64,000 bases of DNA from a virus, in IMG/VR virus record IMGVR_UViG_3300022746_000016, positions 1-64,000 of that record. One strand, given 5' to 3'. Positions 24,074-26,914 of the stretch are shown one piece after another (position 1 is the stretch's first letter; every line of letters begins with the position of its first letter). The notes beneath the pieces are model-generated. The model worked only from the letters and a program-made list of their open reading frames with translations, searched no databases and was not told where the DNA came from. A program made the translations under genes and the position numbers.

Positions 24074-24576
24074 GTTGTATCCTTTATAAAATTTAAAGTA
24101 ACATTGGGATTATCCTCAATGATCTGGTTCCACCTAGTTCTCCAAGCACCAATACATCTCTTAGTTTCATCTGAAGTATTAACATAATCATGAGTACAAC
24201 TTTCTATTGTATCCGCAAACCAAGAGTCACATCCATAGATGTCTATTGTAGTGGCACCATTACGAATCATAACTTCAACAGCAACGTGTCCAGCTGATGG
24301 GTAAGGGTATTTAGGGTTGATAAGCTCAATAAGATATGGATCAAAGAGTTTCCTCTTTTTAATCTCATCTGTTATCATCCATGCTTTGCGAGAGAAATAA
24401 GCAGGTATCTTGATCAACTCTGGATGAAGACCCATATAATGGATAATCTCTGGATCAAGAATAACTGTTGCATCTACGACAGTCCAAGGAATGTTACAAC
24501 CGATAACATAATCATATTCCAGAGAGTCTCGAAAGACAACTCTACTTGGACCATTACATAGAACTGCTACCTTCAT
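24070..24576 (-). CDS. Rossmann-like conserved phage protein, possibly glycosyltransferase-like
   Basis: 168 residues. Opens VAVLCNGPSRVVF, then YDYVIGCNIPW and later SAGHVAVEVMIRNGATTIDI, followed by YGCDSW. The layout resembles DUF115/MptE-like or sialyltransferase-like Rossmann proteins, but I cannot place it firmly. Overlaps neighbours by four bases at each end. Confidence 0.6.
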   Translation of the reverse strand: MKVAVLCNGPSRVVFRDSLEYDYVIGCNIPWTVVDATVILDPEIIHYMGLHPELIKIPAYFSRKAWMITDEIKKRKLFDPYLIELINPKYPYPSAGHVAVEVMIRNGATTIDIYGCDSWFADTIESCTHDYVNTSDETKRCIGAWRTRWNQIIEDNPNVTLNFIKDTT

Positions 24577-24836
24577 TGTTCCAATACGGCTACAATGTTT
24601 TCTTGTTTGATGATAACACGTTGAGCATCACCAATCTTAACAACTGCTGCTTTATTCCACTCAAGATAAATCACATCGCCAACTTTAACATCTGTGACTT
24701 CTGGACCAATGGCTAAAACAGTGCCAGATTTTGATTGATCGAATCCTGCGCCTTGTAAAACAATACCAGATTCAGTAGTGTTCTCACGTTTGTTCTCTGC
24801 AACAAGAACTCTATCTTTTAACGGTGTAACGTTCAT
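24573..24836 (-). CDS. GroES-like co-chaperonin
   Basis: 87 residues from ATG 24836, with GAGGAT upstream. NVTPLKDRVLV, GIVLQGAGFDQSKSGTVLAIG, VKVGDVIYLEWNKA and IIKQENIVAVLE follow Cpn10 from end to end. A shortened mobile loop (ENTTESGIVL) binds GroEL. T4 gp31 plays the same role in capsid folding; this one is closer to bacterial GroES. Confidence 0.88.
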   Translation of the reverse strand: MNVTPLKDRVLVAENKRENTTESGIVLQGAGFDQSKSGTVLAIGPEVTDVKVGDVIYLEWNKAAVVKIGDAQRVIIKQENIVAVLEQ

Positions 24837-24877
24837 AATTATCCTCAATTAACGCAAACCTAAAAGTTTGCTTTTAC

Positions 24878-24883
24878 TAAATA
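24878..24883 (+). promoter_or_regulatory. Late-type promoter for homing endonuclease gene
   Basis: CTAAATAA with its TAAATA core on the plus strand, 22 bases before the ATG at 24905. This would separate the timing of the endonuclease gene from the surrounding minus-strand early genes. Confidence 0.45.
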
Positions 24884-24904
24884 ATTACATATCTTGGAGA
24901 AAAT

Positions 24905-25300
24905 ATGCAATACTTTACTTACCTATGGTTCGATAAGAACCGAAAAATGTTCTATATTGGAATGCACGAAGGTTCCGATGAAGATGGTTATGTGTCTTCA
25001 TCTAGATGGTTTAATGGCGAACAACAATATAGACCAAATGATTTTACTCGTAAAATACTCAAAATGTTTGATAATAGAGCCTTAGCTAGAAAAGAAGAAG
25101 CTAGACTGTTAGCTATGATCAAAGATTCTGAATATGGTAAACGATACTACAATCTTAAAAATGGTCGAAAGAAGGGTACTCCAGCTTCCAACAAAGGTAA
25201 ACCGATGTCAATGGAACAGCGAGAAAAACTAAGGTTAGCTAAACTCGGTAAACCATCGGCACGTAAAGGTATACCGAATAAAATTAAAAGTGCTGACTGA
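24905..25300 (+). CDS. GIY-YIG-type homing endonuclease
   Basis: 131 residues. FTYLWFDKNRKMFYIGMHEG at the start is a phage GIY-YIG-like core; EEARLLAMIKDSEYGKRYYN follows; the C-terminus has NUMOD3-type DNA-binding repeats (NKGKPMSMEQREKLRLAKLG and a shorter SARKGIPNK). It is on the opposite strand to all neighbours, has its own Shine-Dalgarno (TTGGAG) and ends within a few bases of the tmRNA gene. It is probably a free-standing mobile gene. Confidence 0.78.
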   Translation: MQYFTYLWFDKNRKMFYIGMHEGSDEDGYVSSSRWFNGEQQYRPNDFTRKILKMFDNRALARKEEARLLAMIKDSEYGKRYYNLKNGRKKGTPASNKGKPMSMEQREKLRLAKLGKPSARKGIPNKIKSAD

Positions 25301-25304
25301 TTGG

Positions 25305-25604
25305 GTAATAAGGACAGTCAGCGAAACCTCAGGTCAAGTCAGCTTACGCTGCAAGAGCCCAAACATTATCGTTTGCATTTACTTAGTTTGCTTGATTTAC
25401 GGTCATCGCCTACCGTGCTGTCCACTTGTTTACTTGTTGCCCTGTCGAAACCATGGCATCCCCATCAAAAGTATACTAGCCGAACTCCCGAACGTCTTCA
25501 GGCTTTGTTTAACAGGTACACTCTGCACTAATACACTTTTGGTGGAGATGGCGGGAGTCGAACCCGCGTCCAGAACACTTTTCTCTTTGCTTCATACAGC
25601 AATA
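25305..25604 (-). ncRNA. ssrA: Circularly permuted (two-piece) tmRNA
   Basis: On the minus strand the acceptor piece comes first, ending GCGGG-TTCGACT-CCCGC (T arm) and CATCTCC-ACCA at 25540. After a spacer of about 75 bases follows the 5' half: GGGGATG then CCATGGTTTCGACAGG starting at 25463, matching the tmRNA 5' consensus GGGG.TG...TGG.TTCGAC. The acceptor stem GGGGATG/CATCTCC pairs fully with G3-U70, the alanine identity element. The tag frame at 25344-25376 reads ANDNVWALAA then TAA (E. coli: ANDENYALAA). GGACAG near 25418 can pair with CTGTCC near 25312. This order (acceptor half before tag half) is that of permuted tmRNAs, so processing should give two RNA pieces. Outer ends are estimates. 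Confidence 0.92.
25344..25376 (-). other. tmRNA tag reading frame, ANDNVWALAA
   Basis: GCA AAC GAT AAT GTT TGG GCT CTT GCA GCG TAA. The resume codon GCA is preceded by AGTAAAT. The LAA end is the ClpXP degradation signal seen in nearly all tmRNA tags. The tag has Trp in place of the usual Tyr or Phe. Confidence 0.92.
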
Positions 25605-25610
25605 ACTCTA

Positions 25611-25639
25611 ATTATACTCTACAATTTCTTGCAAGGCAA
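25611..25639 (-). promoter_or_regulatory. Promoter of the permuted tmRNA
   Basis: TTGCCT at 25634-25639 and TATAAT at 25611-25616 on the minus strand, 17 bp apart, immediately after the stop of the nuclease gene at 25641. Initiation about seven bases on places the RNA 5' end near 25604, just upstream of the acceptor piece. Confidence 0.8.
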
Positions 25640-25640
25640 A

Positions 25641-26294
25641 TCAGATATTGTATTTATTCTTATAGTCTAGTCGTAACTTACGGAATGGACCAATCCAGTT
25701 ATCACGTTTCTCGATAAACCATCGTGGATCGTCATTCTCAACTGCCATCAAAATTGCAAGACGACCAATAGGAATTCCAGTACGTTCTTCAAATGCAACA
25801 GCATAAGCTGCACATTGCATAAAGTAGTGGTAAATGTCTTCTCGATCTTTAGGCTTGCTTGCTGTCTTGAAGTCAATAACAGTCAGCTTACCTTGAAACT
25901 CAGCGATACAGTCAACCGTTCCAGCAACCTGTAAGTGATCAGAGTACAGTGGAGTTTCTAAGCAGTGGATGTTATCAATCTGATCGAGTAAGAACTTGAT
26001 AGAGTTGAACATCTCCAAGTCAAACATATCAGCTTCGAATACATTTCCACGAAGATAATCCTCACAATACTGGTGAATCCGAGTGCCACGTGCTGATGCT
26101 CGTCCAGAGATTCGATTAGCTTCTTCAGCACCAACTCTCTGTCGCCATTTGGCAATTCCTTCTGCAGTTGCTTGTCCTGTGATTGTTGTTACGCTTGGAT
26201 ACGAAAAACCCGATGGAGTCAGATATGTTCTTTTTCCATCGGGTCTTGTGTCACGTACTAGTTTCGCAAAATCATGATGTATAAAGTTTTTCAT
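25641..26294 (-). CDS. PD-(D/E)XK nuclease, RecB/Cas4-like
   Basis: 217 residues from ATG 26294, which overlaps the previous stop (TAATG). RGTRIHQYCEDYL, VAGTVDCIAEFQGKLTVIDFKTA and CAAYAVAFEERTG are motifs I, II/III (D..DFK) and the Q-x(3)-Y motif of RecB-type exonuclease domains. A role in DNA end processing or host DNA degradation is likely. Last protein gene before the tmRNA. Confidence 0.85.
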   Translation of the reverse strand: MKNFIHHDFAKLVRDTRPDGKRTYLTPSGFSYPSVTTITGQATAEGIAKWRQRVGAEEANRISGRASARGTRIHQYCEDYLRGNVFEADMFDLEMFNSIKFLLDQIDNIHCLETPLYSDHLQVAGTVDCIAEFQGKLTVIDFKTASKPKDREDIYHYFMQCAAYAVAFEERTGIPIGRLAILMAVENDDPRWFIEKRDNWIGPFRKLRLDYKNKYNI

Positions 26295-26914
26295 TAAGTC
26301 AGTAGGTGAATACACTCATTGTAATGTTTAATTCTGTCTTCTAGACCAATGTATCCACCATTGATTTTCTTGGTCATAGTTTTAATGTCACCGATATCTG
26401 CTTCATTATTCAGCTTGTTCTTATTCCAGAACCAAATAGCTGACATCAAAGCAAAGTCACGATCCGCTGTAACCCAGTCTGGGTTGTTTACTACGTTCTC
26501 CCAGTCTTCGAACATTTCTTTGGCAAATGCCGTATAGTTCGCACGTCCAGTCAACTGAATTGGACCACGTCCACGGAAACGATATCCGTCTCCTGATTCT
26601 GGACCGCCATTACCCATGCGGTTAGCATAGATTTTGTTCGCAATCATTTCTGGCTTGCGAGCGTATGGTGTAGCTTCTTCAATTGTTGGGAAATACTTTC
26701 TGAAGATGCTATTCAATCCTTGTGCAGAATAGTTTAGGTTCTCTTCAAAAACAGTCCAACCACCAGACTCATGACCACATTGAGCTAAGAAAGCAGCAAC
26801 ACGTTGTGGTGTATTAATATCGTAAGTTGGAAATACTTCGTTCATCGAAGCTGCCCAAGATTCTGGATCTTGAGCGCGAGGAAATAATTGCTTAAATTGT
26901 TCTGCAGTTATCAT
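26294..26914 (-). CDS. GH19 chitinase-type endolysin
   Basis: 206 residues, single domain. FLAQCGHESGGW contains catalytic acid Glu49, FEENLNYSA the second acid Glu58, then RFRGRGPIQLTGRANY and SAIWFWNKNKLN. GH19 phage enzymes cut peptidoglycan glycan strands. There is no signal peptide, so it needs a holin. The same fold occurs inside the gp5 spike of this phage. Confidence 0.92.
   Translation of the reverse strand: MITAEQFKQLFPRAQDPESWAASMNEVFPTYDINTPQRVAAFLAQCGHESGGWTVFEENLNYSAQGLNSIFRKYFPTIEEATPYARKPEMIANKIYANRMGNGGPESGDGYRFRGRGPIQLTGRANYTAFAKEMFEDWENVVNNPDWVTADRDFALMSAIWFWNKNKLNNEADIGDIKTMTKKINGGYIGLEDRIKHYNECIHLLT

Follow-up and report, generated by a model that had tools for sequence, protein, structure and literature searches.

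Permuted tmRNA genes as such are an already known kind of phage gene. In a survey of phage tmRNAs from 2021–2022, 53 of 133 unique structures were two-piece, and the two-piece tmRNA of the Methylophilales phage Melnitz is of the alphaproteobacterial type and is accompanied by a glutamine riboswitch (PMC9004378). Endonuclease ORFs that bring a replacement C-terminus for a gene have been described in fungal mitochondria, for Allomyces atp6 and for Glomus atp6, atp9, cox2, and nad3 (PMC3630166). The Seg enzymes of phage T4 are homing endonucleases that act without introns and leave 2-nt 3′ overhangs (PMC2988022); one of them, SegB, is associated with tRNA genes, whose amplification it can bring about (PMC13096335). 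Group I introns encoding a LAGLIDADG endonuclease are known in bacterial tmRNA genes (PMC11915505). We found no report in the open-access literature of a homing endonuclease inserted in the tmRNA tag, and what is new here is a tag-replacing endonuclease element at the 3′ end of a tmRNA.

The stretch of DNA that was analyzed (64,000 nucleotides, hereafter the window) comprises bases 1–64000 of a 166,547-bp virus record. The phage carries T4-like structural genes, whose nearest cultured matches show 25–33% protein identity. ARAGORN called one permuted tmRNA in the window, on the minus strand at 25253–25632, with the tag ANDNVWALAA. This gene matched the Rfam family RF04321 (tmRNA_permuted) with 146 bits (E 8e-29, gathering score 47) and the older model RF01850 (beta_tmRNA) with 117.6 bits. 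The initial annotation, made from the letters alone, had proposed a phage-encoded permuted tmRNA with this tag and had named a covariance-model search in permuted mode as its check; both programs returned the expected match, and covariation over 27 sequences agreed with it. The window tmRNA is thus a beta-type, phage-encoded, circularly permuted gene.

The match to the permuted models is full, with the 3′ tRNA-like half encoded ahead of the 5′ half on the minus strand, exactly as had been read. The 3′ half (25540–25567, minus; supported by ARAGORN, Rfam, and covariation) consists of the T arm GCGGG-TTCGACT-CCCGC, the acceptor strand CATCTCC, and an encoded ACCA, with the CCA end at 25540. The 5′ half, recognized by the same three approaches, starts with GGGGATG at 25463 and extends as GGGGATG...TGGTTTCGACAGG into the tag-coding region (25344–25463, minus). 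The segment between them (25464–25539, minus), expected to be removed between the pieces, is fast-evolving and poorly conserved in the alignment of relatives. The tag ORF GCA...TAA called by ARAGORN, GCAAACGATAATGTTTGGGCTCTTGCAGCGTAA, was found at 25344–25376 (minus); it encodes ANDNVWALAA with an ALAA-like C-terminus and is closed by a stop codon. Upstream of the gene lies a sigma70-type promoter sequence, TTGCCT-N17-TATAAT (25611–25639, minus), present as the initial annotation described it. A −10-like UAUAAU is part of the RF01850 consensus and is matched by the window sequence, and TTGACA/TATAAT-like sites precede the tmRNAs of several relatives.

When 27 phage homologues were aligned, 97.1% of cells in the tmRNA helices could pair, double-sided changes were found in 26 of 36 pairs, and every proposed helix was supported. 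The covariation score was reached by none of 500 shuffles and the signal was lost on sliding the helix partners, which excludes a chance origin of the structure. The predicted G3-U70 alanine identity pair of the acceptor stem was present and invariant (U-G in 27/27 aligned relatives). The 3′ hairpin (helix 7, 8 bp, 25292–25322, minus), identified by covariation, showed double changes in 8/8 pairs across relatives. The extent first proposed for the gene, 25305–25639, was correct in sequence and coordinates but not at its 3′ end: the hairpin runs on a little further, to 25292, and is overlapped by an endonuclease ORF, which the initial annotation had overlooked along with the element that supplied the tag. 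Like the Melnitz gene, the window tmRNA is borne by a T4-like phage, has its 3′ half before the 5′ half, and retains a tRNA-like domain and a tag ORF. Unlike it, the gene belongs to the beta type and has a plain promoter, and an endonuclease element provides its tag end.

Thirty related records were collected by the tail protein, and a permuted tmRNA was present in 17 of them, those without it being mostly short fragments. The order PhoH, GH19 endolysin, exonuclease, tmRNA, cell-wall hydrolase, ssb was conserved in 13/13 tmRNA-bearing relatives examined, which share 76–97% ssb identity, and a looser version of it was found in further loci down to about 50% ssb identity. The upstream neighbor in the window is the PD-(D/E)XK exonuclease (25641–26315, minus; phrog_298, 9.4e-72), assigned also by synteny. 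Since the same locus and gene order recur across relatives, the tmRNA is a long-standing resident of this T4-like clade and not a recent capture.

Convergent to the tmRNA lies an ORF of 131 aa (24905–25300, plus), whose stop codon falls inside the tmRNA 3′ hairpin. The protein matched the phrog_314 homing endonucleases (2.6e-13), as did 19/19 of its relatives, and the top three PDB matches of its AF2 model were to the I-TevI catalytic domain (probability 0.97–0.99, E 0.05–0.11). A PDB sequence search with the family profile gave no match, and the Pfam GIY-YIG model scored above cut-off for one relative (L210) only, the window protein falling below it. Residues Y6, Y17, G19, E65, and N83 are invariant in the family, and tblastn detected homologues in Vibrio phages annotated as Seg-like. 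By family, modeled fold, and residues, the protein is best described as a Seg-like GIY-YIG homing endonuclease with predicted cleavage activity. An alignment-based scan gave 43 endonuclease loci (19 distinct clusters at 95%). A permuted tmRNA adjoins the endonuclease in 33 of the 43 according to ARAGORN and in 6 more according to Rfam, 39/43 in total; in the remaining four the contig breaks off no more than about 200 nt from the gene, but a displaced tmRNA 3′ domain is still present. No tmRNA is annotated beside the endonuclease's cultured relatives in Rhizobium, Sinorhizobium, and Vibrio phages, which lie between other genes. In L213/L214 (2083–2881) the endonuclease is on the tmRNA's own strand (tag ANDSEYRLAA), unlike the convergent layout elsewhere, which may be a second insertion mode.

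Evidence that the endonuclease belongs to an inserted element comes from two before/after pairs and from displaced tmRNA domains. In the first pair, the window is compared with L031, a nearly identical phage without the endonuclease ORF. The 5′ part of the tmRNA is 90–100% identical between them, the variable intervening segment excepted, while identity drops to about 55% between GCAAACGA in the tag and the tmRNA 3′ end. The endonuclease block is missing from L031, in which a GroES-like gene follows the tmRNA directly; from GroES onwards the two phages are again 95–100% identical. This co-chaperonin gene is also the next gene downstream in the window (24573–24848, minus; PF00166, 4.5e-16). In the second pair, the empty locus L019 and the occupied locus L047 share >99% identity as far as AGTAAACGCA, where the tag starts. 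In L047 the element comes next, then AGTAAACGCA once more and a 3′ domain in decay, before the flank of L019 resumes. A search for further empty/occupied pairs beyond these two found none. From both pairs the inserted element of the window extends approximately over 24866–25368 (no strand assigned) and contains the endonuclease together with substitutes for the tag end and for the 3′ hairpin (the version of helix 7 described above). Within the tag ORF its DNA begins at about 25368 and runs downwards, divergence from L031 beginning after GCAAACGA.

A second, ordinary tmRNA 3′ domain lies beyond the endonuclease, on the side away from the tmRNA, in 33/42 loci (E ≤ 3e-5) and in 0/21 endonuclease-free controls. 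In L210, L211, and L215 this displaced copy still opens with the old tag end CAGTTCGCATTRGCAGCCTAA. In the window phage it is cut to about 30 nt (AGTAAAAGCAAACTTTTAGGTTTGCGTTAA, 24849–24878, minus), comparable to AGTAAATGCAAAC at 25371–25383 and assigned as a remnant by its form and its position, which are those of the fuller copies in relatives; the rest of the displaced domain is deleted. As this short copy also forms a hairpin ahead of the endonuclease start, the right-hand repeat, judged from the window alone, might be taken for a leader of the endonuclease. The tag and 3′ hairpin of ANDNVWALAA loci are near-identical in L048, L049, L053, and L056, the other genes of which have diverged, so that the tag evidently moves together with the 3′ end. 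Thus, the element consists of a replacement gene end and an antisense endonuclease and is followed, in most relatives, by the displaced original 3′ domain.

The structural features of the fungal mitochondrial cases are present at this locus, namely insertion inside a gene with an empty-site relative, a replacement end upstream of the endonuclease, and a displaced end downstream. As in the fungal ORFs, the endonuclease lies in a gene whose function a replacement end would restore, the displaced native end is found downstream, and the inserted end differs in DNA while largely keeping the peptide. The differences are that the interrupted gene is here a phage RNA gene, that the exchanged part comprises the degradation tag of a tmRNA together with an RNA hairpin, and that the endonuclease is Seg-like GIY-YIG and antisense. 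With the free-standing T4 Seg enzymes, SegB in particular, the locus shares a small GIY-YIG enzyme, a T4-like phage, linkage to a tRNA-type gene, and a hairpin before the start codon; T4 seg genes, however, sit between genes, whereas this element is inside an RNA gene and has a duplicate of its end. The group I introns of bacterial tmRNAs likewise place a homing endonuclease within the gene, but they are spliced from the T-loop region, whereas the present element replaces the tag and is no intron. The integrative islands found at tmRNA genes of bacteria also insert in the 3′ part, restore the gene, and displace a 3′ fragment. In contrast to them, the present element has no integrase, is endonuclease-based, and lies inside the tag rather than at the CCA end.

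Ordinary tags end with GCATTRGCAGCC in the ALAA codons (GCAAACGACAACGTTTTCGCATTAGCAGCCTAA in L031), and element-borne tags differ in these last four codons. We fetched 80 ordinary-tag loci, found independently of the endonuclease and with up to 1.3 kb of downstream sequence available; none contained the endonuclease within that sequence. Conversely, the ordinary end was absent from the working tag of every endonuclease-bearing locus, so that the two are mutually exclusive in our collection. Counted as distinct tag alleles, the endonuclease accompanied 0/17 ordinary and 16/38 other alleles (Fisher p = 0.001), a comparison with ascertainment bias because the endonuclease-positive loci were gathered through the endonuclease; for independently collected loci alone the counts were 0/26 and 2/21 (p = 0.19, not significant). 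The two pairs and the displaced domains weigh more than this test as evidence for the element. At shared residues, codon identity was 38% between element and ordinary tags vs. 78% among ordinary tags. Five element alleles agree with an ordinary allele in 17–18 of the first 18 nt and differ in 5–6 of the last 12, giving the pairs ERFALAA to ERFLMAA, SRFALAA to SRFLMAA, EKFALAA to EKFLMAA, and ESYALAA to both ESYRIAA and ESYRMAA. Another element tag leaves the peptide ANDSRFALAA unchanged with 8/10 codons different (GCTAATGATAGCCGCTTCGCTCTAGCCGCC vs. GCAAACGACTCACGTTTCGCATTGGCAGCC). Element tags thus look as cleavage-resistant working tags would, and the ALAA codons GCATTRGCAGCC are the probable cleavage target; separate ancestry, rather than selection against cleavage, could contribute to the differences. 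We lean slightly towards the wider proposal that a tag-specialized homing endonuclease family cuts the ALAA codons, inserts a recoded or altered tag (NVWALAA, FLMAA, YRIAA, YRLAA), and drives tag diversification in a large T4-like group.

Three loci with the tag ANDNVWALAA lack the window-type endonuclease (L048, L050, L053), which requires either later loss or plain recombination. In L053, a different GIY-YIG/NUMOD-like ORF of 188 aa lies on the same strand about 290–850 nt past the tmRNA. Tags ending in LMAA, RIAA, or AIAA were also seen with no endonuclease in the up to about 1.5 kb of sequence at hand in L004/L154, L006, L014, L040, L016, L020, and L164; these are possibly past homing targets from which the element has since been lost.

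The region right after the tmRNA seems to be a cargo hotspot. Genes just after the 3′ hairpin vary in almost every relative (L165–L177 and others), include those for porin/outer-membrane-like proteins, GroES, hydrolases, and dioxygenase-like proteins, and often start within 20–30 nt of the hairpin. The tmRNA might then be a homology anchor for swapping downstream cargo, the endonuclease being one cargo among many, and tag segments such as ANDSVYALAA and ANDAQFALAA are indeed common to distant backbones without the endonuclease. We regard this explanation as unlikely, because it does not account for the tmRNA beside 39 of 43 endonuclease relatives, the displaced 3′ domain behind the endonuclease, the insertion in L047 exactly at the tag start, or the lack of the endonuclease in the ordinary-tag loci. 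Somewhat less probable still is a domesticated endonuclease that serves the tmRNA, e.g., by amplifying the locus under host defense as SegB does for tRNA-Tyr in T6. SegB does drive amplification of an adjacent tRNA gene (PMC13096335), and its catalytic Y17 and G19 correspond to the invariant Y17 and G19 of the present family. Yet, the endonuclease is patchy among close relatives (absent from L031, L165, and L019), which fits a selfish element better, and the contigs showed no tandem amplification, although assemblies would hide it. That the tmRNA is a decaying, non-functional host fragment is very improbable: tmRNA genes often serve as integration sites, and prophages can contain fragments of them (PMC9004378), but here the gene is complete, the compensatory changes in 26/36 pairs contradict decay, G3-U70 is invariant, the tag reading frame is retained, and the locus is conserved in a lytic-type T4-like clade.

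Directly observed are the conserved, permuted gene structure, the way in which the element is inserted, and the fact that ordinary tags and the endonuclease exclude each other. On these grounds we consider it probable that a mobile homing-endonuclease element has captured the tag-coding end of this permuted tmRNA. The element lies inside the tag ORF, its presumed target, and its substitute tag end and 3′ hairpin make the tmRNA complete again. The old tag end and 3′ domain have been shifted downstream, and of this relic the window phage retains only a remnant. From this we infer homing in mixed infections, in which the endonuclease would cut the ordinary tag end (ALAA codons) of a co-infecting phage, and repair would copy the element by means of two homology arms, one provided by the 5′ part of the tmRNA and the other by the displaced 3′ domain or the downstream gene. 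Owing to its altered last codons, the element-borne tag would resist cutting. As for the tmRNA itself, its own promoter would drive transcription, and the transcript would be processed into two pieces, receive alanine, and act in tagging together with host SmpB. No SmpB gene was found in the window phage or in related records, and the phage would therefore need that of its host; within this limit, it plausibly supplies its own ribosome-rescue RNA.

In the whole source record, TAG makes up 26% of stop triplets and ends 7/169 ORFs of ≥100 aa, and 0/64 in 104001–166547. ARAGORN found about 30 tRNA genes, for most amino acids, in one array (L126:1366–10046, ~65.4–74.0 kb of the record), among them one with the anticodon CUA (L126:5301–5375, minus) that is possibly an amber suppressor. 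Amber recoding of phage genes was considered and rejected: TAG readthrough gave upstream extensions or spurious frames, not lengthened versions of known genes, and we saw no sign of TAG read as sense inside genes of the record. Readthrough of host TAG stops could yield non-stop ribosomes for tmRNA rescue.

The initial annotation had further raised the possibility of a permuted tmRNA in the host lineage too, which the phage gene by itself does not establish. Cultured Stenotrophomonas, Xanthomonas, Acinetobacter, and Alcaligenes phages (L132–L138) carry permuted tmRNAs, several of them unannotated, and those of the first three are beta-type. Stenotrophomonas, Xanthomonas, and Acinetobacter are gammaproteobacteria, the own tmRNA of which is one-piece; the form found in a phage is therefore no guide to that of its host. 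The tag predicted for Xanthomonas phage X1 ends in ...ARYA. A strict permuted-gene pattern was found in 46 IMG/VR contigs, and one ordinary tag-end variant alone in at least 120. Scanning a genome collection with the tag pattern returned four Bacteroidota contigs, in which ARAGORN found no tmRNA. Plasmid p2 of Cupriavidus pinatubonensis contains a permuted tmRNA with the tag ANDEKFALAA at a position where no gene is listed (L139:544–875).

If the wider proposal of tag diversification by a tag-specialized endonuclease family is true, the ribosome-rescue tag is a battleground of selfish elements, and the degradation of tagged proteins during infection is possibly altered. The element offers a candidate, testable cause for the odd variety of tags in phage permuted tmRNAs, and its Seg-like enzyme has a predicted, easily assayed site. 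The natural tag variants could serve as tools for asking what phages need the tag for. Finally, the locus would extend the range of elements made of an endonuclease plus a duplicated gene end from fungal mitochondria to the RNA genes of phages.
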